A program made the position numbers and the translations under genes. The notes beneath the pieces are model-generated. The model saw only the letters and a list, made by a program, of their open reading frames with translations, did no database searches and was not told the DNA's origin. A DNA stretch of 64,000 nucleotides, taken from contig CP092880.1 of the NCBI GenBank assembly GCA_030710605.1, positions 19,281,791 to 19,345,790 on the forward strand, written 5' to 3'. Of the stretch, positions 7,038 to 56,741 are shown one piece after another. Every line of letters begins with the position of its first letter. Within the stretch, counting starts at the first letter, position 1. Source of the DNA: Cordylochernes scorpioides. Its lineage: Eukaryota; Arthropoda; Arachnida; Pseudoscorpiones; Chernetidae.

Positions 7038-7661
7038 ATGATGTCAAATATTGTTCCATTTCCTGCTTTTACGCCAGATCAAGATTTTGAAATTTTCGTG
7101 AAATGTTTACGTTTTGCGTTTGCTGCGAATGATACTTCGTTAGCTAAACAAGTACCAGTTTTACTGGCGGTGATAGGCCCAAAGTTATTTAAATTGGCCG
7201 AAGATTTGGCAGCGCCTGAAAAACTGGAAACCAAATCATTTGATGAAATAGTCGCACTTCTAAATAGACATCTCGTACCTACACCTAGAGTCATACCAGC
7301 TAGATATAAATTTTTTAAGTCAAGCCAAGAAGATGAAACTATATCTCAATTTATGGCAACATTGAGGGGTCTAGCAGAGCCTTGTAAATTCGGAAGCATG
7401 TTAAATGAAATGCTACGAGATAAATTGGTGGTTGGCGTTAGATCCGAAAATCTACTGAAACGCCTATTGCAAGAAGGCGATGACGCAACATTAGACAAAA
7501 TTTACGAGATAGCATTATCATACGAAGCCGCAGAACGAGATTTAATATAAATGAAAAATGTAGATTATGCAGATGCAAATGTTCATGATGTTAAAAAATT
7601 AAATAATGCATGTTCTCATTGTGGTAGACATAATCATCTATCAAATAAATGCTTTTTTTAA
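7038..7661 (+). pseudogene. gypsy gag, with an internal stop
   Basis: The main open part (7,038-7,550, 170 aa) is a Ty3/gypsy capsid-like protein with the typical helical stretch, including 'FKSSQEDETISQFMATLRG' and 'LRDKLVVGVRSENLLKRLL'. A TAA at 7,548-7,550 interrupts it. In the same frame the sequence continues at once with an ATG and reaches a first zinc knuckle, CSHCGRHNHLSNKC, before a stop at a T7 run near 7,653-7,660. The second knuckle (CHECGKIGHIKPAC) is in the next frame, at the start of pol. The protein would form the particle that packages element RNA. Confidence 0.85.
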
Positions 7662-9110
7662 AAACGCAAAATGTCATGAATGTGGAAAAATTGGACACAT
7701 AAAGCCGGCTTGTAAAAATAGAAAAACTAAATATGCCAAAATACAGCATGGATCAAAAGCTACTGGAAAAATAAATGTGGTTGAAGCAAGTGAAAATGGA
7801 AAATATTTTATTACATTAAATGTGGACAACAAAAATATACAGTTTGAATTCGATACAGGTAGTTGTCACACGTTGATGCCAATAAATTTATATAAGAAAT
7901 TGTGGAATAAGAAAATATCTCCAATAAATTTACATCTTAAATCTTATTCAAATACGAAGATTGATGTTATTGGCAAAAGAGAAGTGTTCGTAGCAGAGGC
8001 CAACAAAACTCTTCCTTTGATTATAACTGAAGCAAATAGGTCTGTATTGCTTGGCATTACTTGGATTAAGTGCTTGCCTGCTAAATTTTTAAAATTCTCG
8101 GACATAAATTTAGTCCAAGAAACAACATGTTCCTCTTTGGTAAATAAATTTGCAGAGGTTTTTGGCACTTCAAATGTAGGTGTAATTAATGACCATAAGG
8201 CGCATCTAATTCTTAGAAAAGATGCTAATCCTAGATTTTTCAGGGCGAGAAATGTTCCTTATGTAATGAGAAACGCCATTGAAAAAGAATTGGGAAATCT
8301 TGAAGCCCAAGGAGTAATTACAAAAATAGAAAGAAGCGATTGGGCTACGCCTATAGTTCCTATAGTGAAAAAGAATGGCCATGTCCGTATTTGCGGAGAT
8401 TTCAAAATAACACTAAACCCTGTACTTAAAATTGACCAATATCCACTACCAAAAATAGAGGACATTTTTGCCATTCTCGGAAAAGGAATAAATTTTAGTA
8501 AAATAGATTTGTCCCAGGCATATTTACAATTAGAATTGGACGAAAATTCAAAAGAAATGGCCGTAATAAATACACATAAAGGACTCTATAGATATAATAG
8601 ACTTCTTTTCGGCATTGCTTCTGCACCAGCAATATGGCAACGAATAATTGAACAAATATTGTCCGGCATACCAGGAACTCTTGTCTATCTGGATGATATA
8701 CTAATTACCGGAGAGTCAGAGGCTGACCATCTTAGAAATTTGGAGGCAGTCGTAAATAGATTAAATGAATATGGCCTCAAGGCTAACAGGGAAAAATGCA
8801 ATTTTTTCCAAGAAAGTCTTGAATATTGCGGTCATGTGATCGATAAAATGGGTTTGCATAAAACAAATGATAAGATAAGGGCTGTTTTGGATGCTCCAGA
8901 ACCACTAAATGTAACTCAGTTACGAGCGTTTTTGGGCTTAATTACCTATTATCATAAATTCATCAGAAACGCTGCAGATGTTTTATCGCCCTTATATGCT
9001 CTTCTAAAAAAGGGAACAAAATGGCATTTTTCAACAGAGTGCCGAAAGGCTTTTAGGCAAATCAAAGAAATTATCTCTTCAGATCAAATATTGATTGCCT
9101 ATGACCCTAA
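7606..9110 (+). pseudogene. gypsy protease and reverse transcriptase
   Basis: This frame starts with the second gag knuckle CHECGKIGHIKPAC, then an aspartic protease with the active site 'FDTGSCHT', then a full reverse transcriptase: 'YPLPKIEDIFA', 'FSKIDLSQAYLQ', 'FGIASAPAIWQR' and the catalytic YLDD at 8,686-8,697. The coding sequence leaves this frame near 9,105, where RNase H continues in another frame. The frame change from gag lies in a T7 tract and equals one extra base, so it could be a programmed shift, a mutation or a sequencing error. Homology to Ty3/gypsy is clear from motif order. Confidence 0.88.
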
Positions 9111-10212
9111 TTGCCTATCCGTCTGTCGTGTGACTCAAGCAGCTACGGACTCGGTGCTGTGTTGTCTCAAATTGATGTCGACGGAAATGAACGTCCCATA
9201 TATTTTATCTCAAGAACCTTATCTCAGGCTGAAAAGAAATATTCACAGATTGATAAGGAATGTTTGAGTATAATTTGGGCTTTAAAGAAATTTAACAATT
9301 ACCTTTTTGGAAGAAAATTCGAATTAATAACTGATAACAAACCCTTGCACCATATACTAAACCCCAAGCGGGAAATATCATCGAACATGTCTGCACGACT
9401 ACAGCGATGGGCATTGATCTTGTCTTCATATAACTTCACAATTGAGTGCAGGAAAACTGGAGACCACGGCAATGCCGATGGACTTTCTAGATTGCCACTA
9501 AAACAATATGAAGAAATGGAAGAAGATGCTGTAAATACAGTTCACATGATTAAACAATGTGAAGAATTGCCGCTCACATCGAGTCACATTAGGCGAGAAT
9601 CTTGCAAGGACTCAATCTTGAAAATAGTATACCAGAACACATTGTATGGTTGGAAAGATAAGCCATCAAATACCGAATTGCTCTCGTTTTATTTGCGAAG
9701 AGAAGAATTAACTGTAGAGCAAGGAATCCTACTTTTGGGAACACGAGTAGTTATTCCAAGGAAATTCAGAGCGAAAATTAAAGCTGAGTTGCACCAAGGA
9801 CATCTAGGTGTTGTAAAAATGAAAGCACTAGCGCGAAATTTTATTTGGTGGCCTGGAATAGATCGTGAAATAGAGGAAATTACTAGAGTCTGCAGAGAGT
9901 GTAATATAAATAACCATACGTTAAAGCAAGAAAGTGTTCACAGGTGGGAATCTGCTCCTACACCATGGTATCGAGTTCACTTGGATTTCGCGGGTCTATT
10001 CATGAACAAAATGTTCTTAATTGTCATTGACAGTTATTCGAAGTGGCCGGAAGTTATTATAATGAATTCCACGACCGCGGGAAATACTATCCGAGTTCTG
10101 AGAGACTTATTCTCGCGTTATGGTATTCCTGACCAAGTGGTCACGGATAACGGCCCTCAATTCGTTTCGGAAGAAATGAAATATTTTTTAAAAATCAAAT
10201 GGAGTTCATCAT
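9111..10212 (+). pseudogene. gypsy RNase H and integrase (N-terminal and core)
   Basis: This frame carries RNase H ('SCDSSSYGLGAVLSQ', 'KECLSIIWALKKF', 'TDNKPLHHIL'), then the integrase zinc-binding region with H-X3-H style start 'HQGHLGVVKMKALA' and 'CRECN', then the catalytic core with 'VHLDFAGLF' (first Asp) and 'VVTDNGPQFVS' (second Asp). Coding then shifts frame near 10,195, in an A/T-rich homopolymer stretch. RNase H removes template RNA; integrase inserts the cDNA and would make the 5-bp duplication seen at the flanks. Confidence 0.87.
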
Positions 10213-10890
10213 TTGAGGTCTGCTCCTTATTTTCCAGCTACCAATGGTTTGGCAGAACGTTTTGTACAAACTCTGAAAAGAGGCTTAAAGAATATGAGAA
10301 ATGAAGAATTAAATAAGAGTTTGGCAAATTTTCTGTTCACATATAGAACAGTACCACATTCGAGCACTAGGGAAGCCCCAGCAGTCCTTTTCTTAAAGCG
10401 GATGCTTAAATGTAAGTGGAACCTATTGAAGCCAAAATTGGAAGTCAAACCAGGATTTAAAAAGGGATATTCCCCTGATTTTGAGGAGGACGAGGATATC
10501 TTGGTCAGAGACTTTCTGGGTCCAAATAAATGGAAGGAGGGAAAAATTATAAAGATACTTGGAAAGTGTTTTTACACCGTTAAATTGAATGACGGCAGAT
10601 TATGGAGACGGCACGTATGCCAATTAAGAAAAAGTTACATCGCGCCTAGTCCAGCTTCCGAGATATTTCTGCCAGAGCAACTGATAAATTATCCAAGAAA
10701 TGTGAGCCGTGCAGAGGATGGTTCTGTGGAGATCCCAGTCTCTCCCAGTAAAGAGAACATTCCCTCCTCTTCAGGAATCTCTGCACCAGAGGAGCCCGGT
10801 TCCGCAGCTTCGGCGTCGGACCAGGATAGGACGCCCCAGCGGCGGTATCCTATGAGGGACAGGAGACCTCCCGAGAGATTTGGATTTTGA
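10213..10890 (+). pseudogene. gypsy integrase C-terminal part
   Basis: This frame continues the integrase core with 'APYFPATNGLAERFVQTLK', which includes the catalytic glutamate, followed by the C-terminal DNA-binding region and a Pro/Ser-rich tail ending in 'RYPMRDRRPPERFGF', a basic end common in this group. It stops at 10,890, 15 bp before the right LTR, leaving room only for the polypurine tract. No chromodomain or envelope is seen. Confidence 0.86.
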
Positions 10891-13740: not shown

Positions 13741-13811
13741 GCATCGGTGGTTCAGTGGTAGAATGCTCGCCTGCCACGCGGGCGGCCCGGGTTCAATTCC
13801 CGGCCGATGCA
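13741..13811 (+). tRNA. tRNA-Gly(GCC)
   Basis: A canonical 71-nt tRNA-Gly with anticodon GCC in the loop 'CTGCCAC'. The seven-pair acceptor stem is GCATCGG/CCGATGC with discriminator A, the A box is GTGGTTCAGTGGTAG and the B box GGTTCAATTCC. A run of at least twelve T follows directly, a strong RNA polymerase III terminator. The 5' flank ('aatatggccattt') and the 3' flank ('acaatttttaaaactcattt') recur at the other two copies (22,000-22,070 and 35,096-35,166), so the gene lies in a duplicated cassette. It looks functional: all stems pair. Confidence 0.93.
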
Positions 13812-14838: not shown

Positions 14839-14954
14839 GTTTGTATTATGTATAAAAGAAACATTCGTGCTTTTAAATACTTTCATTTTATATGTGTAGA
14901 TGGCGCGTTATTGCTTAGTGTTAATTCATATTTCTGTAATAAATTAGACACTTC

Positions 14955-15199
14955 GGTCAGTTAAAGATTTATTTTCTCAACTTTTCAACAAAATTCTTTT
15001 GTCTTCGTCAGGAGAAATAAATAAAAAATAAAGCATTTGGCAAGGCGTTAAAAATTGTTCTGAAGTTGCAAAGGAGAACGTCCTTACAGCCTCAGAACCA
15101 TTTTTTAAACCTTTTCAAATGCTTTATTTTTATTTATTTCTTCTGACGAAGACAAAAGATTTTTGTTGAAACATTGAGAAAATAAAACTTTAACTGACC
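14955..15199. repeat. Foldback repeat with ~85-bp inverted arms
   Basis: The sequence from ggtcagttaaag reads back as its near-complement ending in ctttaactgacc, with arms of about 85 bp around a ~65-bp centre. Each arm contains CTGACGA followed 18 bases later by GAAA (minus strand 14,983-15,011; plus strand 15,143-15,171), resembling a hammerhead core. The transcribed strand would fold into a long hairpin. Confidence 0.75.
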
Positions 15200-15330
15200 A
15201 AATTGTATATTTTATTAAACTTTTTAATTATTAAATCAGTTAGAAAATTAATTATTTAATGCATATGTATTGAAATTTTAAAAAAATACTTCATGGAGAT
15301 TTCAGTTACGGGATTGTAGGTTTTCTACTA

Positions 15331-16500: not shown

Positions 16501-16599
16501 AACTATATTGAGGTATATCATTTAATGATAAATTAGATCAGTGTGTAGTTTGAAAGAATGTAGATTTATTTATATTTATTTTTTTCTGTTGTTTTTCCA

Positions 16600-16905
16600 T
16601 GTGTTAAGCGTCTTTACGCAAATCTGGCCTTAAATACCCATTTCTTGATTTCTCATGAAGCCTCTGGGACCAAAAATCTTTTTGATCGCAGTGGTTACAG
16701 CCTACTCCACGCTGACGAGCGCCAACAGCGCGAAACGCGTTCGTGAATGACTTTTCTTGATTTATCAAGAAATTGGGTTGGTCAAATATCACGGAGAAGC
16801 TAAATAAACGTTTAGTTTATTTTTGCTCCACTAGAAGGCGCTCTGCCATCTAAAAAGCACATGTGCTCGTGGTCAGGAGATGCCTTCTTTATTTTTAATA
16901 TATAT
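16600..16905 (+). mobile_element. Hammerhead-bearing repeat, left-truncated copy
   Basis: This segment is the reverse complement of most of the foldback element at 18,331-18,686. It has that element's right arm ('agatgccttctttattttt' at the end) but not the left arm. It carries a hammerhead ribozyme motif at 16,706-16,747. No ORF of note. In other animals such ribozymes occur in Penelope-like elements and retrozymes, which is the likely origin. Confidence 0.75.
16706..16747 (+). ncRNA. Hammerhead ribozyme motif, type I, copy A
   Basis: All core boxes of a hammerhead are present in order: CTGACGA (16,712-16,718), stem II GCGC-caaca-GCGC (16,719-16,731), GAAA (16,732-16,735), then CGCG, T (16.1 position) and T (cleavage H17), with predicted cleavage after 16,741. 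Stem I pairs CACG (16,708-16,711) with CGTG (16,742-16,745). Stem III is ACGCGT, a palindrome too short for a stable single hairpin but ideal for pairing between two copies, as in dimeric hammerheads known from Penelope-like elements and newt satellite. Activity is inferred, not shown. Confidence 0.75.
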
Positions 16906-17061
16906 ATATTATTTTTATTGTTATATTTTATTATATTTCAAATCATTTTAAAGAAAAGCGTTTGAATTTACATGTATGGGTAAGCCGTCGTTATATAGGC
17001 AAATAAGGAGTGGTTTATGCTTAAAATATGTAACTTCCTTAAGTTTTGTCTATGAGTGTAT

Positions 17062-18073: not shown

Positions 18074-18330
18074 TGAAATTGTTTGAGCTGTACTACAGTG
18101 ATTTTTTATTTTAAAATATTATTATTATGTCTCTATAAAATCGTTTGGCTTAAATTTGCTTTTGGCTTAATGTTCTTAAATATGTTTTATAGAAGGAAAG
18201 TCCTGTTGAACTGCCTCCCATTCCTTAACACTTATTATAAAACATAATATTCTTATTTTTCTTAAGAGTTTTTTCTATATTTGCATATAAAATAAATGAA
18301 TTGATGTTCATATATATATATATATATATA

Positions 18331-18686
18331 TTAAAAATCAAGAAGGCATCTCCTGACCACGAGCACATGTGCTTTTTAGATGGCAGAGCGCCATCTAGTG
18401 GAGCAAAAATAAACTAAACGTTTATTTAGCTTGCTCCGTGATATTTGGCCAACCCAATTTCTTGATAAATCAAGAAAAGCCATCCACGAACGCGTTTCGC
18501 GCTGTTGGCTCTCGTCAGCGTGGAGAAGGCTGTAACCACTGGGACCAAAAAGATTTTTGGTCCCAATGGCTTCCCGAAAAATCAAGAAATGGGTATTTAA
18601 GGCCAAATTTGCGTAATTGCGATTGGCGCTCAGCCATCTAAAAAGCACATGTGCTCGTGGTCAGGAGATGCCTTCTTTATTTTTAA
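18331..18686. mobile_element. Foldback element with ~65-bp inverted ends and a hammerhead motif
   Basis: A 356-bp element. Its left end (ttaaaaatcaagaaggcat...) and right end (...atgccttctttatttttaa) are inverted repeats of about 65 bp sharing 'gagcacatgtgc'. The centre contains a hammerhead motif on the minus strand. Related pieces: 16,600-16,905, 19,587-19,730 (truncated) and 45,555-45,655 (arms only, forming a hairpin). It lies next to (TA)n tracts. It encodes nothing. Confidence 0.8.
18483..18524 (-). ncRNA. Hammerhead ribozyme motif, type I, copy B
   Basis: On the minus strand: stem I TCCACG (18,524-18,519) pairs perfectly with CGTGGA (18,488-18,483), CTGACGA is at 18,518-18,512, stem II is GAGC/GCGC (18,511-18,499, one A-G mismatch), GAAA is at 18,498-18,495, and the palindromic ACGCGT plus T precede the predicted cleavage site between 18,489 and 18,488. 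Compared with copy A, stem I is longer and stem II is weaker, while all core boxes are identical. This supports a real motif instead of a chance match. Confidence 0.72.
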
Positions 18687-18753
18687 TATCAACACCTGAC
18701 CCACTTATCTTTTATTTTTTCTATTGTTTTTTCATATATATATATATATATAT

Positions 18754-19584: not shown

Positions 19585-19586
19585 AT

Positions 19587-19730
19587 TGAAAATAATGAAA
19601 GCATATCCTGACCAGGAGCACATGTGCTTTTTCGATGGTAGAGCGCCATCTAGTGGAATAGAAATCAACTAAACATTGATTTCCCATGTTCCCTGATATT
19701 TGGCCAACCCATTTTTAATATCAATACTTG
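19587..19730. mobile_element. Truncated copy of the hammerhead foldback family
   Basis: It matches the left arm and neighbouring part of 18,331-18,686 ('gagcacatgtgctttttcga', 'gatatttggccaaccca') and then jumps to 'tttttaatatcaatac'. The ribozyme centre is deleted. Confidence 0.65.
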
Positions 19731-21999: not shown

Positions 22000-22070
22000 T
22001 GCATCGGCCGGGAATCGAACCCGGGCCGCCCGCGTGGCAGGCGAGCATTCTACCACTGAACCACCGATGC
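22000..22070 (-). tRNA. tRNA-Gly(GCC)
   Basis: Reverse-complement copy of the tRNA-Gly at 13,741-13,811, 71 nt, with one difference in the T loop (GGTTCGATTCC, the standard B box). All stems pair and an A-run on the plus strand (T-run in sense) gives a polymerase III terminator. The 5' flank in sense ('aaatatggccatttttt') matches the flank at 13,741, and the 3' flank 'acaattt' is shared too. Confidence 0.93.
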
Positions 22071-35095: not shown

Positions 35096-35166
35096 TGCAT
35101 CGGCCGGGAATCGAACCCGGGCCGCCCGCGTGGCAGGCGAGCATTCTACCACTGAACCACCGATGG
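35096..35166 (-). tRNA. tRNA-Gly(GCC), first base mutated
   Basis: Third copy of the tRNA-Gly cassette. The body is identical to 22,000-22,070, but the first transcribed base (35,166) is C in place of G, so position 1 cannot pair with C72. The T-run terminator and 3' flank are kept, while the 5' flank differs from the other copies from this base on. It may be a pseudogene or a boundary effect of the insertion. Confidence 0.8.
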
Positions 35167-35655: not shown

Positions 35656-38600
35656 TTACAAGATGGTGATGGGAGATGGAGGAAGAAAACCTCGGCGCTG
35701 GAGGGTCCTGGACCAGGCGATGAGCGGGTCTTCCACTGCTTCTCCGAGCCCAACCTGTACAAAGTAGCGATAAATTCGCAACTTTGCCGACGCCAAGATG
35801 GAAAGGGCGTCGTCCTCAAGGCCGGACCCGCCGAAGATCCAAGCCTGCAGGTCAGGGGGCCGCCCTATGATGTTGAAGGCCTCTCTGATGAGAGGCCTGA
35901 TGGAGCGGCAGCACCAGTAACGGTGGCCGAGGGAGCGGTCGATGGACCCGCAGGCAGGACAGGAGGGGCCGACCGAGGCAGGATGGGCCGGATGGGGCAG
36001 GGCGTGGAGGGCTAGCTTGAGAGCTGCGTCGGCCTCGTGACCCGAATAGGCGCAGCGCCGCAGCGAAGCCCAGTCGATCCTGGATGTTGGATTGATGGTG
36101 GGCGTCCATCTCGCCAGGAATCTGGAGATGGGCGTGGCGGCGAGGCGCTGACGATCCAGGGCCCATCGGGCTGAGCGGGTCGTGAGGCCGTTGAGGAACG
36201 GCGTAGCCGTCCCACGCAGCACCACGGCCGCAGCAAGGGAACTGGATGAAGGCGTGAACTCCGCCCCGAAGCCCACGGCGTTCTCGGAGGTCAGCCTCCG
36301 ACAGAAGGCGCCCAGGGCCGCGGCGTCAGCCAGGGCCGAGCGCGTAGGGCGGGCGAAGAGGTGTTCCTCCTCGATGAGGTCCCGGACTCGGGCTCCGCTC
36401 CAGCGGGCGGGGGCCAGGAGGTCGGGAGGGCGGAGGAACCGGCAGCCGCCGATGATGGGGAGGTCCAGCAGCTGAGCCGTGGGGACCGCCCGGTGGTTGA
36501 GGCCCAGGATGTTGGAGGCCTCCTCCCAAAGCTTCAGCAACCGGAGACGGCGGGGCTGGAGACGGGTGCCGTCCGGTGGAGGGTGGATCCAGGCTTCCCC
36601 GCTGTTGCCGCCGACCAGCCAGCTGAAGGCATTTCTGCCCCCGCGGAGCTCGACCTGCACCCCCTTGAGGCAGGCGAGCTGGAGCTGGGTCGCGAGGTCG
36701 AGGAGGCCGAGGCCTCCGATGGCAACTGGCCTCGCCATGACATCGGCGGGAAGCCACGCCGTGTGGTCCTGTCCCCAGACGAATCTCGCCAGTCGGGCCT
36801 GCAGCTTGGCGATGGTCGGGGGTGATGGTAGGTAGCCATGCAGGTGGTGCTGGATGACAGAGCCCACCAGCGTGTTCGCCGCTCTTGCTCGCCCGACGAG
36901 GGAGAGGCCGCGGGTGAAGGGCGTCCATTTGCGGCATGCAGTCTCCAGGAGGGCCAGGAGATGCTGCTCCCGGTGGGCGACGGTGCTCCTGGGGGCGATG
37001 TCGAGCCCGAGGACCCTGATGGAGGTGGTCGACCAGGAGGCGCCGAGAGGGGAGTCGCCGCGGTTGCGCCAGGCGCCGCACCAGAGGCCAGCGCTCTTCC
37101 GGAGGTTCACGCCAACCCCGGAGGCCTGCTTGTACTCTTCGAAGACGGTCGCCACCCGTTCGAAGTCTTCGTCACGATGGAATAGAAGGACGATGTCGTC
37201 GGCGTAGGCGATGACATTGCCCACGCCGAGGGTCAACTCCAGGCGACGTAGTAGCGGCCCCGTGGCGATGCTGAAGAGTGCGGCACTCACGGCGCAACCC
37301 TGTCTTAGGCCGTTGAGGAGGGGGAAGGCGGTGGTGTAGAAGCCTCCGGCCCGGATGGTGGCGTCCGCCCCGGCGTAGAGGATGTTAATCCAGGCCCTGA
37401 AGGCCGACGGGAGGCGGAGGGACGTTAGCAGGGACTCCAAGAAGCCGCGGTCTAGTGAGTCAAAGGCGGACTCCAGGTCTACGCCCATGACGGCCAGCGG
37501 CGAGCCCAGGGCGGTGGCCTCCTCGACGGCGTCCGTCACCATGGCGATGTTCCATGACGGGGACCTCCCGGGGACGGCGTAAGTCTGGCATTCCGGCACA
37601 AGGGTCCGCAGGTGGGGCTTGAGGCGCCGGTGAAGGATGGCGGCCAGGACCCTGTAGTCGGCCGAGGGCAGCGCGACGGGCCTGTAGCCGTCAAGGCCGC
37701 GACCTCCGCGGGCCTTGGGCACGAGGCAGATGGAGCTGCGCCGCGTCGACGGAGGCAGGGCACCGCGGAGCCGTGATGCCGCGAACACCCGGGCCAGAGC
37801 TTCCGCGAAGAAGTCCTCGCTAAAGGCGACGAGGAGCTCGCACGGCAAGCCGTCCCAGCCGGGGGCCTTGCCGCGAGGGAGGTGCTCGATGGCGTTGGCG
37901 ATCTCGCTGGGGCTGATGTCCGGCCGGTGGAGCGGGTCCTCCTCACTCAGCTCGCGGGTGGTGGTGGGCGCGCTGCTGGCGATGAAGGCAGCTCCCGCAG
38001 CTGGATCGCTGGTGGGACGGGCGAAGCGGGGCTGGAAGGTCGCGAACGCCCTCCGCCGAAGCTCGGGGCCCTCGATGATGTTATCCTGCTCGTCCCTGAT
38101 TACGCTGACCGGGCGTCGGAGGCGGATGGCGCGTGCTAGGTCCGGCAACGATGGGTAGTCGGCCCGGATGGAGGAGGCCTCGAGCTGCGCCGCGATGTAA
38201 CGTCTCGCCCTGTAGACGTAGCTGTCGTTGGCAGCGTGGCGTGGGTCGTGCAGGGATCTGGCCTCCGCCAGCAGCCCCGCCTTGATGGAGGTCCACCTAT
38301 CCCAGAAGGTCCCGTCGTCGTCATCGTGCGCTGTGTCTTCCTCCAACTCCCGGATGTAGCCAGCCAGATGTTCGAGAGCAAGGCCCGAGCGGAGCATCGC
38401 GGCCAAGCGAGGCTGGGTGGGGGAGGAGACGGCGGTGGTGGGCGGGCCCACCTGGAGCAGCACGAGGCGGTGGTCCGAGAGGTGGTAGTGGCTGGTCGCG
38501 TAGATGGACACGCGATCCAGGACTCCAGTAGGGACGAGGATCCGGTCCAGGCGGTTGGATTCGACTTGGTCGCCGTGCATGGAGACTCTGGTAGGCAGGT

Positions 38601-39132
38601 GGGCGGCGTCGAACTGGGTGGCCACGTCGACCAGCGCGGCCAGGTCCAGAAGAGCGGCGAGGGCATCCGATGATGATGATGATGAGGGGCCCCGATCCCT
38701 GATATTAAAGTCGCCGATGATCCAGCAGGCCCCCTCCTCTTCCTGTGCCGCTGTCGCCGCCAGGAGCTCCAGTTGTTGGTTTCTCTCCCGGGGTTCATGC
38801 GCCAGATGAACGGCGATGGCCGTCATTTCCTCGCCGTGGACATCTATTGTTGCCAAGGCGATGTGGCCCGGCCACAGGATACGCTGTTGTAGCACGGCTA
38901 CGCCTGGTCCGAAGACGCAGGCGAGTCCGAATCCCGAGATGGCTACGGGATGGGCCAACACAACAGCGCCGTAGCCGAGGCAGAGGTCTTGGCCGCTGCC
39001 CAGATGAAATGCGTTTGTCTCCTGGACAAACGCGATGTCCACGTGATGTTGCCTGAGTAAATGACAAAGGGCAAGGCTCCTCCCCCGAGTGGCGAGCCCT
39101 CGCGCGTTGATGGTGGCGACGCGGTAACTCAT
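35656..39132 (-). CDS. ORF2 of Tx1-like LINE: endonuclease and reverse transcriptase, intact
   Basis: An uninterrupted 1,158-residue ORF. Residues 1-230 are an apurinic-type endonuclease: 'ATINARGL' (N9), 'AFVQETN' (E38), 'IIGDFNIRD' (D141, N143) and 'HLSDHRLV' (D220, H221), all catalytic positions kept. The reverse transcriptase follows, with 'PRGKAPGWDGLPCELL', 'MGVDLESAFDSLDRG', 'GLRQGCAVSAALF' and the catalytic YADD at residues 643-646 (37,195-37,206). A C-terminal zinc knuckle C-X2-C-X8-H-X3-C lies at 1,058-1,074. No RNase H. The start ATG (39,130-39,132) overlaps the ORF1 stop as ATGA, suggesting translation by termination-reinitiation. With every catalytic residue present it could still be an active enzyme. 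Confidence 0.92.
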   Translation of the reverse strand: MSYRVATINARGLATRGRSLALCHLLRQHHVDIAFVQETNAFHLGSGQDLCLGYGAVVLAHPVAISGFGLACVFGPGVAVLQQRILWPGHIALATIDVHGEEMTAIAVHLAHEPRERNQQLELLAATAAQEEEGACWIIGDFNIRDRGPSSSSSSDALAALLDLAALVDVATQFDAAHLPTRVSMHGDQVESNRLDRILVPTGVLDRVSIYATSHYHLSDHRLVLLQVGPPTTAVSSPTQPRLAAMLRSGLALEHLAGYIRELEEDTAHDDDDGTFWDRWTSIKAGLLAEARSLHDPRHAANDSYVYRARRYIAAQLEASSIRADYPSLPDLARAIRLRRPVSVIRDEQDNIIEGPELRRRAFATFQPRFARPTSDPAAGAAFIASSAPTTTRELSEEDPLHRPDISPSEIANAIEHLPRGKAPGWDGLPCELLVAFSEDFFAEALARVFAASRLRGALPPSTRRSSICLVPKARGGRGLDGYRPVALPSADYRVLAAILHRRLKPHLRTLVPECQTYAVPGRSPSWNIAMVTDAVEEATALGSPLAVMGVDLESAFDSLDRGFLESLLTSLRLPSAFRAWINILYAGADATIRAGGFYTTAFPLLNGLRQGCAVSAALFSIATGPLLRRLELTLGVGNVIAYADDIVLLFHRDEDFERVATVFEEYKQASGVGVNLRKSAGLWCGAWRNRGDSPLGASWSTTSIRVLGLDIAPRSTVAHREQHLLALLETACRKWTPFTRGLSLVGRARAANTLVGSVIQHHLHGYLPSPPTIAKLQARLARFVWGQDHTAWLPADVMARPVAIGGLGLLDLATQLQLACLKGVQVELRGGRNAFSWLVGGNSGEAWIHPPPDGTRLQPRRLRLLKLWEEASNILGLNHRAVPTAQLLDLPIIGGCRFLRPPDLLAPARWSGARVRDLIEEEHLFARPTRSALADAAALGAFCRRLTSENAVGFGAEFTPSSSSLAAAVVLRGTATPFLNGLTTRSARWALDRQRLAATPISRFLARWTPTINPTSRIDWASLRRCAYSGHEADAALKLALHALPHPAHPASVGPSCPACGSIDRSLGHRYWCCRSIRPLIREAFNIIGRPPDLQAWIFGGSGLEDDALSILASAKLRIYRYFVQVGLGEAVEDPLIAWSRTLQRRGFLPPSPITIL

Positions 39133-39683
39133 TGGGGCCGTCCTTCACGCAGCACCTTCCTGGTCTTCTGGAGGGTCTTGCGGATGGTATGGTTGGAGTC
39201 TGGGATTGAGGCCTTGATGGTTTCGGCCACCTGGTCGAGGGCGGCGACCTGTGCTTTTGACAGCGAGGGCACTCGCTTCTCCATTTTTCTTTTAGAGGTG
39301 AGTAGCCACTGTGCGTCCTCGCGGTCTATACCGGGCAGCCCGTCCCAGTCGATGGAGAGGTTGGGGGACTGCTTGAGGTGCTCCCGCAGCTGGACGAGTG
39401 CGGGTTTTCCCCGGGGAGACGCGGAGGGAGTTGAGGTCAGCTCCTCCTCCGACATCTCAATGTCGAGCGGAAAGGTCTCGGGCTCTAGGGGCCGCGGGGC
39501 AGCCAGAGGAGCAGGGAGGGCGACAGGGGCGGGCTGGGCAAGATCCCTCGGTTCGGCAGGATGGGGCGCCGAGGGGGTCACTGGAGCCTCAGTTGAAGTC
39601 TTCGCCGTTTGGACAGGGGACGCCAGTGTTGCGGGCGCAGGTGTCGGCCTCCTTGGCTGCTGAGGAGGAGGAGGAGGAGGGGC
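39129..39683 (-). CDS. C-terminal part of Tx1-like ORF1, displaced by one frame
   Basis: This frame is open from 39,683 (just after a TAG at 39,684-39,686) down to the TGA at 39,129-39,131. It starts Pro/Gln-rich (encoded by the GGA repeat), then has 'PATLASPVQTAKTS', a proline-rich linker, 'FPLDIEMSEEELTS' and a basic helical end 'KTLQKTRKVLREGRPQ'. It has no good start of its own and follows ORF1 directly in a frame differing by one base, so it is most simply the natural C-terminus of ORF1. Its TGA overlaps the ORF2 ATG. The likely break point is the C4 tract (plus-strand gggg 39,679-39,682). Confidence 0.75.
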   Translation of the reverse strand, partial: APPPPPPQQPRRPTPAPATLASPVQTAKTSTEAPVTPSAPHPAEPRDLAQPAPVALPAPLAAPRPLEPETFPLDIEMSEEELTSTPSASPRGKPALVQLREHLKQSPNLSIDWDGLPGIDREDAQWLLTSKRKMEKRVPSLSKAQVAALDQVAETIKASIPDSNHTIRKTLQKTRKVLREGRPQ

Positions 39684-42236: not shown

Positions 42237-43010
42237 TCTAAAGAAAGAAAGTCGACAGGATTCGACATAGAGTCGACAGGATTCAACATATATATGTAAT
42301 AAGTTGAAGTCCTGGTAGCTCTTGTAGAATCCTGTCGACTAGCTGTAATAAGTTGAGGTTTGGTTGTTGACTCTCGCTATACTGTGTTGACCGAGAGGAA
42401 CAGTCAGGATGGGGAGTTTTCCAGTACCTCTCTGCACCTTGGAAGACCTTTTACAATTCTCACAAAGTACAGGCAGTCGTGGTCGAGGCAGAGTGGAAAA
42501 CTTGGGAATGTCCACACAAAAAAACGAAGACACAGTTGCACTAAGAAAGTAGTTGAACTAACTGTGAAGTGACTGTAAAGGGACTGTATTTATATGTTAA
42601 GACGGGGGGCCTTATGCGACAGGGGCCGTTCCTGAGAAAGGGGGCCTTGCATGTCACCAGGTGTGAGAGGGGGCTTTGCATTCCACCAGATGTGGAGTGT
42701 GGGTGGTCTTGGTCCATTTTTAGACCTTGTTGTGGGAATTCTAAATCTATCTCGATTTTGACGTTATGACTTCTAACTCTTGCTTAGCTCAACTCTTAAT
42801 CTATTACAGATTATTATTTATTTATCCTCAGTTTGTACAAATTACATTACATATGATGATGTAAAGACACATATCAATAATATGTATAATCATTTACAGA
42901 TGTGTTTCTATTATACAACATTAAAATCTTATTATAAGTTATATACAATATGGGGTTGTTGGTTTAAATTACCATATATATATATATATGTTATATAAAA
43001 AGAAAGAGAT
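42237..43010. other. Non-coding stretch with a 14-bp inverted repeat
   Basis: No gene is recognised. The 14-mer agtcgacaggattc (42,271-42,284) is repeated in inverse orientation at 42,327-42,340, and a near-direct copy starts at 42,250. A second motif 'gtaataagttga' occurs twice (near 42,295 and 42,343). The G-rich part 42,600-42,690 repeats 'gggggccttgcat'-like phrases. It may be the leader of the retroelement whose LTR precedes it. Confidence 0.45.
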
Positions 43011-43332: not shown

Positions 43333-44339
43333 CGTTTTATTTGCCATCTGATTGGCTGATTAAGGTCACGTGAAAGTGAACTGATTGGCTCTGATTGACT
43401 GTTCATCGTCATGTGATCTTAATCAGCCAATTAGCATTGAGTTCATTCGCCAAATAGTGCACAGTGTTTCTTTAGCTCAGAGATTGCATGCATTGAACAG
43501 TAAAATAATACATTTAATATAAAAAGTGGGTAAGATTGTAAGAATATTTTTATATATTTTAAGTAATATTAAAATATTTTTACGCTCTATCTGTAATTTT
43601 AAAAACAGACTTATCTCAGAGTTAAATTTGACTTTTTCTTCTTTCTTATCTCCACTCAATCATATTAGAGTATCTAGCTTGTAAAGCTTGTTGATGGTGT
43701 CTGCCGGGGTAGAGTAGAGCTCATTAATGGATGAGTCAATACAGTCAGATTTGACAACCATCATGACTGCGTGAAGTAGAATGCGTCTGCCTTTTTCATT
43801 AAGACTGGGAGCACTACTCAGTGGCAGGCCGACTTAGCTCCAAAAGAAATGGCCGCCTCTGACATGAGGAACAGACGCCATGTGCAACCGCTCCTAACAT
43901 GGAGTACAAACGCTTCTCATCCTGTATCCCTGGATTAGGAGCCCTTACAGGGTACTGTCAGCCGGGCCAGCTGAGCCCAGGTTTTTTAGTGAGATTTTTA
44001 CTGCTCCCCCTCCTCCTTTTTCATCCGGGCTTGGGACCGGCAAAGGAGGAGTTGAGTTAAATTTATGAATTATTAGGATTATTTATTCTTTGGATGATAG
44101 GGGGATATCTTATGCATTATCTTCTTTGTTTTTAATGAAACGTTTTTGCGGTATGAAAATAGCTCTATTTTATTTATTCGGTTAATTATTAAGCAAAATT
44201 GATTTTGAAAATTTTCGTCGCATGTGAGATTTGTCAATGCTCTATATTATTTAGAGAGCTCTTTAGAATATCTTTAGTAAGTTTTAGAACGGGCAGTCAT
44301 CTTTAGACCTGTTAGCTGAACGTTCTAATGCTCTAGTAT
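43330..44339. other. Non-coding stretch, with a GC-richer block resembling LINE 5' sequence
   Basis: No ORF of note. The block 43,690-44,060 is GC-richer and contains 'catccgggcttgggaccggc' and 'actgctccccctcctccttt', which on the minus strand looks like the untranslated leader of LINE families, but no adjoining ORF supports this. At 43,395-43,450 short near-palindromic phrases ('gattaaggtcacgtgaaag' and 'catgtgatcttaatcagcc') face each other. Confidence 0.4.
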
Positions 44340-45382: not shown

Positions 45383-45554
45383 TATTCATATCATGATATG
45401 ATAAATAAACCAATTTCACTATTATTAGGGAGATTAAGTTGTCAAAACCTTTATTAGACAAACTTTCTATTGAAGCCAAGTTAATTCGCTATATATTTTG
45501 TTGTGAACAAAACAGTAAAAAATATTAAAAAAAGGACAGGTGTTGATATTAAAA

Positions 45555-45655
45555 TCAAAAAAAGCATATCCTGACAAGGCTCACATGAGCTTTTTAGATG
45601 GCAGAGTGCCATAAAATGTGAGCTCATGTGAGCCTAGTCAGGATATGCCTTTTTA
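45555..45655. repeat. Hairpin made of foldback arms
   Basis: 'gcatatcctgacaaggctca' and 'catgagctttttagatggca' are followed after a short loop by their near-complement ending 'gtcaggatatgc'. The arms match the inverted ends of the hammerhead foldback family, but the ribozyme centre is deleted. Confidence 0.7.
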
Positions 45656-54891: not shown

Positions 54892-55278
54892 ATAAAGTAT
54901 ATAAGAAATAGAACTATTAACCCTTTAGGTGCCGGCCGTTTTCAAGGTCATTCCTGATTATTATTATCCTTCTAAAGACATCAAACTATTCTTTAAATTA
55001 TTTTTTATTGAACGCTTTTATGATTCATACAAACATATTAAACACAATGCAACAGAATATGCGCTTTAAAATACAATTAATTGATTTTCATTAGATTTTT
55101 TTAAGGAGAAAAAGAGCGTCAAGTCACATCAAACCGATACATCGGCTTGTCTGGTGCTTAAAGGGTTAAACATGAATTTTTCTTTTTCAAATAAAGCAAA
55201 CTTTCTACTGTTCTTACTGAGATGAGAAAACTTTTATATTGGCAAAACATGGAAAAATTGCCGGGAGGAAATTAATCT
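54892..55278. other. AT-rich non-coding stretch
   Basis: No gene is visible. A phrase 'accctttaggtgccggcc' (54,920) and 'ggtgcttaaagggttaa' (55,151) are short inverted ends enclosing ~250 bp, a possible further MITE. Confidence 0.45.
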
Positions 55279-55512
55279 ATAGAAGCAATGGGCGCTTCTC
55301 CCGTCAAAATAAACGTCAAAATCTGACGCCATCTATTGACCGTCGCGGCCCATTAGCCCGAAGCCATGGTCTCTAGGTGGACGCTTCTCAGTTTGCCAAA
55401 GCTGGTGTTGTGGCTTTGTCACCGACCCAAGCCCGCTAGTTGCGGCGACGGTCAATAGATTGCGTCAGGTTTTGACGTTTATTTTGACGGGAGAAGTGCC
55501 CATTGCTTCTAT
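55279..55512. repeat. Foldback repeat with ~72-bp inverted ends
   Basis: The left end 'atagaagcaatgggcgcttc' is mirrored by the right end 'gaagtgcccattgcttctat'. The arms include 'aaaataaacgtcaaaatctg' and its complement, with the centre 'gccaaagctggtgttgtggc'. It encodes nothing. Confidence 0.78.
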
Positions 55513-55743: not shown

Positions 55744-56011
55744 TTTTGTTTGATTTGAAAGAGAATTGGGACAAGAGAGAGATTAAGCATAAAAAATAAT
55801 TTACGTTTAAAGCCGGAAATACTCAAAGGGTGGTAAAGGGAGAAAATATTGCAGGTAAAGATATTTGAGGAGGTGTAGATTGCTGATATTCCTCCTGCGC
55901 CCTATCAGACAGTTACAAGCCAGCCAGTCAGCAAGCGGCGTAAGATCTGTGATTACGGAAGGACGATAGCCTCTGATTACAAACCATTTGGCAATCTCGA
56001 CGACGCCGTCG

Positions 56012-56056
56012 TTACGTAACGCAAGGCTGCCATTGGTGTGGTGCTGAGTCACGTGA
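56012..56056 (+). promoter_or_regulatory. bZIP and E-box sites upstream of the GST gene
   Basis: Three palindromic sites lie 17-61 bases before the ATG: TTACGTAA (56,012-56,019), GCTGAGTCA (56,043-56,051, reverse TGACTCAGC, the antioxidant-response/MARE core bound by CNC-Maf factors) and the overlapping E-box TCACGTGA (56,049-56,056). For a detoxification gene an antioxidant-response element is biologically sensible. Some of these may lie in the 5' UTR. Function is inferred. Confidence 0.5.
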
Positions 56057-56072
56057 ACACATCCTTGTCACA

Positions 56073-56741
56073 ATGGCGCCTGTGCTCGGTTACTGGGACA
56101 TCCGTGGGCTGTGCGAGCCCATTCGATTCCTGCTGCACTATGTTGAACAGGAGTTTGAGGACAAGCGCTATGTCGTCGGTGCTCCTCCCAACTTCTCCAA
56201 TGAATGGTTTCAAAAGGATAAGAATAGCTTGGGGTTGTTGGTACCCAACCTGCCCTACTACGTCGACGACAAAGTCAAGCTGACTCAGAGTGGAGTCATT
56301 ATCCGCTACCTGGCTCGCAAGTTCGACCTGGCGCCCCGCGATATGGATGAACAGCTGGTAGCTGAGCAGCTCGAGGGACATTTCTACGACTTCAAGATGG
56401 ATTTAATCCGTTTCGCCTACTTCAATCCAAATTGGAAAGAATTGATGGGGAGGCATCTGGAGCGGCTTCCCAGCAAGTTGAGTGGCTTGGAGATACTTCT
56501 AAGCGACGGCCGTCAGTGGTTCCTGGGTGACCGGCTGACCTACGTCGATTTCCTCGCTTACGACGCCCTGGACTTTGAAAGGATCCTTAACCCGGAATGT
56601 CTTGATGCTTTCCCTAAGATCGTTGAATTCCTCAAGCGCTTCGAAGATCTTCCTCAGATCCGGCGCTTCATGGAATCCGGCAAGTATTACAAACTTCCTC
56701 TCTTCGCTCCAATCGCCTCTTTCGCCAACAAGAGAGAATGA
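56073..56741 (+). CDS. Glutathione S-transferase, mu class, single exon
   Basis: An intact 222-residue enzyme with an excellent start context (cacaATGg). The N-terminal thioredoxin-like domain has 'LGYWDIRGLCEPIR' with catalytic Tyr7, the cis-proline loop 'VPNLPYY' (Pro61) and the glutathione-binding 'LTQSGVIIRYLARK' (Gln72, Ser73). The helical C-terminal domain includes the N-capping box 'LTYVDF' (Thr156, Asp159). Length and motifs fit cytosolic mu-class GST, which conjugates glutathione to electrophiles. Mu-class enzymes are characteristic of chelicerates, crustaceans and vertebrates and rare in insects. No intron is visible and flanking MITEs crowd it, so a retrocopy is possible, but no poly(A) tract is seen. 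ataataaaa at about 56,789 is a polyadenylation signal. Confidence 0.95.
   Translation: MAPVLGYWDIRGLCEPIRFLLHYVEQEFEDKRYVVGAPPNFSNEWFQKDKNSLGLLVPNLPYYVDDKVKLTQSGVIIRYLARKFDLAPRDMDEQLVAEQLEGHFYDFKMDLIRFAYFNPNWKELMGRHLERLPSKLSGLEILLSDGRQWFLGDRLTYVDFLAYDALDFERILNPECLDAFPKIVEFLKRFEDLPQIRRFMESGKYYKLPLFAPIASFANKRE

Follow-up and report, generated by a model that had tools for sequence, protein, structure and literature searches.

The hammerhead ribozyme motif at positions 16706–16747 of the window (the whole 64,000-nucleotide stretch of Cordylochernes scorpioides DNA analyzed here) belongs to a non-coding repeat unit of about 349 nt, and this repeat is very probably a non-autonomous, retrozyme-like element with a minimal type I hammerhead, copied by the reverse transcriptase (RT) and GIY-YIG endonuclease of Penelope-like elements (PLEs). 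In the examined loci we observe the motif, the unit, two discrete 3′ ends, a head-to-head order of copies, a near-obligate pairing of those ends at insertions, and short target duplications. This evidence supports copying by PLEs, not cleavage by the ribozyme, which is a separate question.

The plus-strand sequence of the motif (copy A), which has a complete core, places every hammerhead box where the sequence-only reading had put it: the stem I strands CACG and CGTG (16708–16711 and 16742–16745), the core box CTGACGA (16712–16718), stem II as GCGC-CAACA-GCGC (16719–16731), the box GAAA (16732–16735), the palindrome ACGCGT as stem III (16735–16740), and U17 at 16741, with a predicted cut between 16741 and 16742. 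This is the type I arrangement, with CUGANGA, GAAA, and UH boxes ordered round three stems, of which stems I and II have 4 bp each and stem III has shrunk to the loopless palindrome. A strict finder, which asked in turn for CTGANGA, stem II with 4 bp or more, GAA, stem III with 3 bp or more that opens with A and closes with T, any base but G, and stem I with 4 bp or more, returned one match in the window; 200 simulated windows of 64 kb (first-order Markov model, searched on both strands) returned none. The bare boxes CTGANGA..GAAA are less distinctive, with seven matches against 2.2 expected. The hammerhead observation at 16706–16747 is confirmed.

Covariance models, the check suggested along with that reading, did not bear it out at their curated thresholds. 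When 331 nt were searched, the alignment to Rfam Hammerhead_1 (RF00163) spanned exactly 16706–16747 and scored 21.7 bits (E 0.0068) against a cut-off of 34, and a scan of the whole window at E ≤ 1 reported no hammerhead, neither copy A nor a second copy, B. Among the matches listed, unit copies scored 22–26 bits with RF02275, for which the cut-off is 52. Scores below threshold for both copies were among the outcomes that the sequence-only reading had named as refuting it; we do not read them as disproof, because the models expect a longer stem III. Copy B (18484–18523, minus strand) retains an intact core and a stem I of CCACG/CGTGG, with six stem I positions paired; it passes only a relaxed finder because of a single stem II mismatch (GAGC/GCGC). 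Stem I of copy A is one pair shorter than that of 16 full aligned copies (CGTGA versus CGTGG).

The repeat unit occurs alone, in tandem, and head to head. At locus L011 two hammerheads follow one another 349 nt apart (cleavage to cleavage), with unit sequence throughout, and this 350-nt L011 unit serves as our reference, in which the predicted cut falls after position 189. In the window, copy A lies in a unit copy at 16575–16901 (plus strand, reference 22–350 of 350) that ends at a short 3′ site, S. A head-to-head insertion consists of a minus-strand arm at 18328–18616 (reference 62–350, S end) and a plus-strand arm at 18624–18732, which covers reference 285–350 and a further 44-nt tail, ending at a second site, T; all three were delimited by blastn chaining and their flanks. 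Two diverged copies lie on the minus strand: a 5′-truncated one at 19585–19715 (reference 218–348, from the blastn chain) and a fragment at 45546–45612 (reference 284–350, from the chain and flanks), whose flank runs on, by eye, into tail-like sequence. No open reading frame of at least 150 aa overlaps 16575–16901, and the 349-nt unit does not encode the RT and GIY-YIG domains of an autonomous PLE, which the element is not; nor is it established as a satellite. No tRNA, 5S, or 7SL-like match, as in the small-RNA head of a SINE, was found in 16600–16930 at E ≤ 10.

The genome comprises 2.62 Gb in 24 contigs, and the core 29-mer CTGACGAGCGCCAACAGCGCGAAACGCGT has 9,039 exact copies in it (4,492 + 4,547; reversed control, 0), in agreement with the earlier proposal that the hammerhead sits within a dispersed repeat. 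A 28-mer near the 3′ end of the unit has 11,338 copies and a 26-mer near its 5′ end 3,096, a gradient that fits 5′ truncation, with the reservation that the three words may not be equally conserved. Joining unit matches over gaps of up to 60 nt gave 208 chained copies, 28 of which are longer than 400 nt (maximum 824 nt). Copies exceeding one unit need a multimeric or circular template, and the data do not separate these two.

These 208 copies come from 107 loci and the window, all 107 loci being first listed places on contig C1. Their 3′ ends are discrete: 75 copies end exactly at reference 350 (S) and 39 exactly at position 44 of the next unit (T), and the next commonest ends adjoin these, at 349 (15 copies) and 43 (8 copies). 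Copying of the RNA thus starts at either of two sites, S or T, separated by a PLE-like "tail" of 44 nt that lies within sequence beginning CAACACCTGACCCAC. The 5′ starts are scattered along the unit, as in spread 5′ truncation. When copies within 40 nt of each other were grouped, 61 groups were head to head (−+) and one was +− (at L100, touching the locus edge), alongside 59 single copies and ten other arrangements, which include two −+− groups that each also contain a +− neighborhood.

The two 3′ ends are combined in a near-obligate manner. Fifty-eight −+ pairs lie clear of the locus edge; six have an unclassified arm, and the other 52 comprise 25 ST, 23 TS, three SS, and one TT, giving one S and one T in 48 of 52 where independence of the arms predicts 50% (P about 6 × 10⁻¹¹). 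This count includes a second look at the S ends in search of diverged tails; plain blast classes gave 46 of 52. The rule is broken in four pairs, and of these the SS pair at L017 also runs into tail by eye. In a comparison of flanks, none of the pairs duplicates another. Single copies end at S in 39 cases and at T in ten, with seven unclassified; two of these single copies, at L107 and L108, seem to be duplicates of a single insertion. Flanks share sequence beyond chance, as expected of short target duplications: the longest shared flank word averages 8.98 nt in 55 pairs (7.24, s.d. 0.24, in shuffles) and 6.42 nt in 55 single copies (5.14, s.d. 0.23). Shared words reach 11–12 nt at L039, L055, L056, and L065, of which up to 2 nt at each end may be element. 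The arms overlap by 1 to 21 nt at the junction in 32 of the 61 pairs, and the flanks are (AT)n-rich by eye.

This anatomy makes PLEs the right comparison, as the sequence-only reading had proposed. PLE insertions have an optional tail of 30–40 bp set by two RT start sites, both target strands are cleaved and extended with a preference for AT, and the pseudo-LTRs (pLTRs) carry hammerheads (PMC11167929); one member of an inverted pLTR pair may carry the tail, duplications measure 8–10 bp, and repeats are head to head (PMC3846280). Like PLEs that bear pseudo-LTR hammerheads, the element has two 3′ ends spaced 30–44 nt, inverted copies arranged head to head, and short duplications of the target, and by eye its surroundings look AT-rich (PMC11167929, PMC3846280); its minimal hammerhead is like theirs (PMC11167929). 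It differs in being about a tenth of PLE size, with no RT or GIY-YIG gene, and in that the near-obligate rule of one S and one T is quantified here, whereas the tail is described as sitting "optionally" on one inverted pLTR there (PMC3846280).

We infer from this anatomy both the agent and the following order of steps. The RNA would be reverse-transcribed and inserted by the RT and GIY-YIG endonuclease of PLEs in the same genome, with both strands of an AT-rich target acting as primers. One cDNA would begin at S, the end of the unit, and the other at T, 44 nt further on; both would run 5′-ward until they stop. Fusion of their two ends would give the head-to-head junction, and the target would be left with a short duplication. 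The ribozyme would most likely act on multimeric transcripts, cutting them when two copies pair through ACGCGU.

PLE genes are abundant in the genome. PLE-type GIY-YIG frames were found with a regular expression in four of 20 ten-kb loci (chosen for holding the unit), and Pfam places RVT_1 and GIY-YIG together in a frame at L011, both at or above cut-off, and at L022, both below it, with GIY-YIG alone at L018, L109, and L112. The L011 frame has no match in the PDB at E ≤ 0.01. A genome-wide GIY-YIG scan gave 17,015 first-look candidates, and 146 of the 150 scored were listed as matches. The PLE locus L112 bears a different hammerhead family. Among the few flanks inspected by eye in the fetched loci, none showed an autonomous PLE sharing the 3′ end of the unit. 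Separately, the frame at L109:1402–2829 carries its GIY-YIG domain near the start (residues 34–114 of 476), compared with near the end at L011, and Pfam found no RT in it; L111 was noted alongside L109. The domain order at L109 is reminiscent of PLEs with permuted domains.

This abundance would also suit an explanation in which the copies are solo pseudo-LTRs, that is, terminal fragments of a 3-kb autonomous PLE, the body having been lost or left uncopied, and not a small element in their own right; PLE pseudo-LTRs do carry hammerheads and have like tails and inverted copies (PMC11167929, PMC3846280). We nevertheless consider it improbable, since multi-unit copies repeat at 349–350 nt with no ORF between them (L011), 28 of the 208 chained copies exceed 400 nt, and a non-exhaustive look through the fetched loci noticed no copy joined to an ORF.

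A non-autonomous element copied by PLE enzymes must also be set against the animal non-LTR retrozymes (Cervera and de la Pena 2020, PMC7229834), which it resembles closely. Their small non-coding units span 170–400 nt, a range that includes the 349 nt found here, and common to both are tandem copies, a type I hammerhead, strongly self-paired RNA, and thousands of copies. On the strength of these likenesses, and of frames in the window that resemble LINE RTs by eye, the unit could be regarded as a classical animal retrozyme whose hammerhead makes a circular RNA that LINE enzymes copy, with tails and inversions as by-products of twin priming. The second 3′ end 44 nt downstream, the near-obligate S/T pair, and the strong head-to-head bias are instead traits described for PLEs, and we know of no LINE that combines them, which leaves this reading very improbable. 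The element also departs from the published retrozymes in its minimal hammerhead with a loopless stem III, of the sort known from PLEs, and in the PLE-type tails and head-to-head pairs at its insertions; RNA circles have been demonstrated for those retrozymes (PMC7229834), whereas the present element is known from DNA sequence. PLEs have been put forward, on indirect grounds, as likely mobilizers by the retrozyme authors themselves (PMC7229834, PMC7761336).

The RNA of the unit is predicted to be strongly self-paired, as animal retrozymes are: the minimum free energy of the 349-nt circle is −117.7 kcal/mol, against −70.8 (s.d. 4.9) in 60 dinucleotide shuffles (z = −9.5; lowest shuffle −84.7). 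Across 110 consensus-predicted pairs, in an alignment of 314 fragments that includes bait copies and in which cells are copies and not events, 80 cells had changed on both sides yet remained paired, compared with 25–35 when partners were slid by 1–3 columns. Within the ribozyme such cells number three at the stem II pair 168–178 and nine at the outer stem I pair 149–198. In the monomer no stem III is possible, and the active fold (−15.9 kcal/mol) is less stable than the best predicted fold (−19.3 kcal/mol). Pairing of two ACGCGU strands is predicted at −7.5 kcal/mol, and that of ACCAUGGU in a second hammerhead family at −11.2 kcal/mol. These models make dimeric action through ACGCGU plausible.

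The cDNA ends were examined as a record of template cutting. No copy has its 5′ end at reference 190, the predicted cut; the ends peak instead at 188 (six copies, with one at 189), where varied neighbors precede TT. The peak is best explained by an RT stop at the hairpin CGCG-AAA-CGCG (177–187), and an origin in two untemplated bases added after run-off at 190 is possible. Because the hairpin stop explains the peak, there is no sign of ribozyme-cut templates, and we reject them as the source of these ends. The templates look uncut here, much as in the anole PLE, for which unprocessed RNA is the main substrate and insertion in vitro is independent of the ribozyme (PMC11167929).

Whether the ribozyme core is held by selection was assessed in an unbiased sample (loci L029–L108), which was recruited through patterns outside the ribozyme and so avoids the bias of bait copies. 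The 12 core sites show nine changes in 845 site-copies (1.1%), and the remainder of reference 46–345 shows 893 in 24,551 (3.6%); excluding sites variable in at least 15% leaves 669 in 23,828 (permutation p 0.003). The 39-nt windows of lowest divergence fall in reference 47–92, a region that is biased because it contains the 26-mer that served as anchor for half these loci. All 12 core sites are intact in 55 of 60 unbiased copies, whereas 12 random sites average 77% and only 2% of draws reach the core's value, and variation is found at the permissive sites N7 and H17 (4 and 2 of 59 gap-free copies). Genome-wide counts of single changes in otherwise perfect motifs read differently: set against 9,039 perfect copies, 247 carry a change at G5 (G to A in most of the 100 listed), 29 at A14, 47 at loop base 172, and 83 at loop base 175, so that the catalytic G5 is altered more often than either loop base. 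A constraint on the core is thus possible but not proven: the sample favors it, and the genome-wide counts give no clear result. The check for randomly mutated genomic cores thus came out mixed, the unbiased copies speaking for the hammerhead and the G5 counts against it. We regard the sequence-only interpretation as a whole as partly supported: the hammerhead, its dispersed repeat, the loopless stem III, and the comparison with PLEs stand, and cutting of transcripts and circularization are predictions.

The genome-wide counts, which give no sign of special protection of G5, and the uncut appearance of the templates both suit the idea that the hammerhead is a relic, which once cleaved and whose motif, now functionless, is passed on as the element is copied. 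The anole PLE, in which ribozyme mutants had no effect on insertion in vitro, suits this idea too (PMC11167929). We find this doubtful, given the whole core kept in most unbiased copies, the variation where it is permitted, and a diverged subfamily (L033, L083) that has CTGATGA, a stem II of GGGC/GCCC or GGGC/GCTC, and C at H17 while keeping core and loop. L033 is 78% identical over 111 columns, and its stem II is changed on both sides, to GGGC/GCCC.

Hammerhead retrozymes of small size are already known, as are minimal hammerheads in PLEs and the tails of PLEs. In the dispersed minimal hammerheads of animal genomes and the dimeric hammerheads of PLEs, too, stem III is absent or tiny and cleavage as a dimer is expected (Cervera and de la Pena 2014; Lunse et al. 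2017, via PMC7761336); distinct here are the palindrome ACGCGU and the definition of the host element, its copy number, and its insertion anatomy. The newt satellite hammerhead is likewise of type I, with a dimeric mechanism proposed (PMC6155905), whereas the present copies are dispersed or form short multimers, the longest chained copy being 824 nt. A search of literature titles and abstracts, which permits a limited claim, found no retrozyme with PLE insertion ends and no S/T rule. With the PLE signatures in the examined loci, the question of which enzymes spread animal retrozymes can be put to a direct test, and the S/T pairing seen in 48 of 52 classified pairs sharply constrains PLE integration, a poorly known reaction. 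We tentatively raise a broader view, about which we remain slightly more doubtful than convinced: such retrozymes may be the SINEs of PLEs, each insertion consisting of two target-primed reverse transcriptions, one per strand, obligately from S and T. If so, the S/T rule would stem from an asymmetry between two RT protomers that share a single RNA signal, and PLE integration would proceed through two cDNAs whose roles are fixed.

The second hammerhead family has a 319-nt unit and 9,048 exact copies (4,492 + 4,556) of a 31-mer core in which stem III is ACCATGGT. Among 100 matches listed, neighbors within 800 nt were arranged −+ ten times and never +−, and three same-strand pairs lay exactly 319 nt apart. 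The window holds a head-to-head copy of this family at 55251–55508, in which the CTGACGA box is lost because the plus arm starts inside the ribozyme. A third, hammerhead-like family forms a head-to-head pair at 14937–15027 (minus) and 15127–15217 (plus), with CTGACGA-stem II-GAA, a stem I of GAGAAA/TTTCTC, and a 4-nt remnant of stem III; a close relative, also a pair, lies at L112 about 600 nt beyond the GIY-YIG frame. At E ≤ 1 Rfam reported neither of these families as hammerheads.

Several other features of the window were noted. A Twister-P1-like ribozyme at 44004–44058 (minus) scores 43 bits against a cut-off of 67.2 and has the core CCGGTCCCAAGCCCGG intact; this core also occurs at L018 and L020, and L021 has a 41-bit match. 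A review mentions RTE elements whose 5′ end carries a truncated twister (PMC7761336). A 1,162-aa open frame at 35656–39144 (minus), endonuclease/RT-like by eye, lies within a 4-kb stretch of 66.5% GC in surroundings of 30–44%, and broken frames at 7603–10890 (plus) resemble LTR-retrotransposon pol by eye only. Three near-identical tRNA matches (13741–13811, plus; 22000–22070 and 35096–35166, minus) have an anticodon loop around TGCCACG. A long inverted repeat at 42250–42340 matches a miRNA model at 33.6 bits, below the cut-off of 71, and the frame at 55977–56741 (plus) encodes a glutathione S-transferase with both N and C domains.
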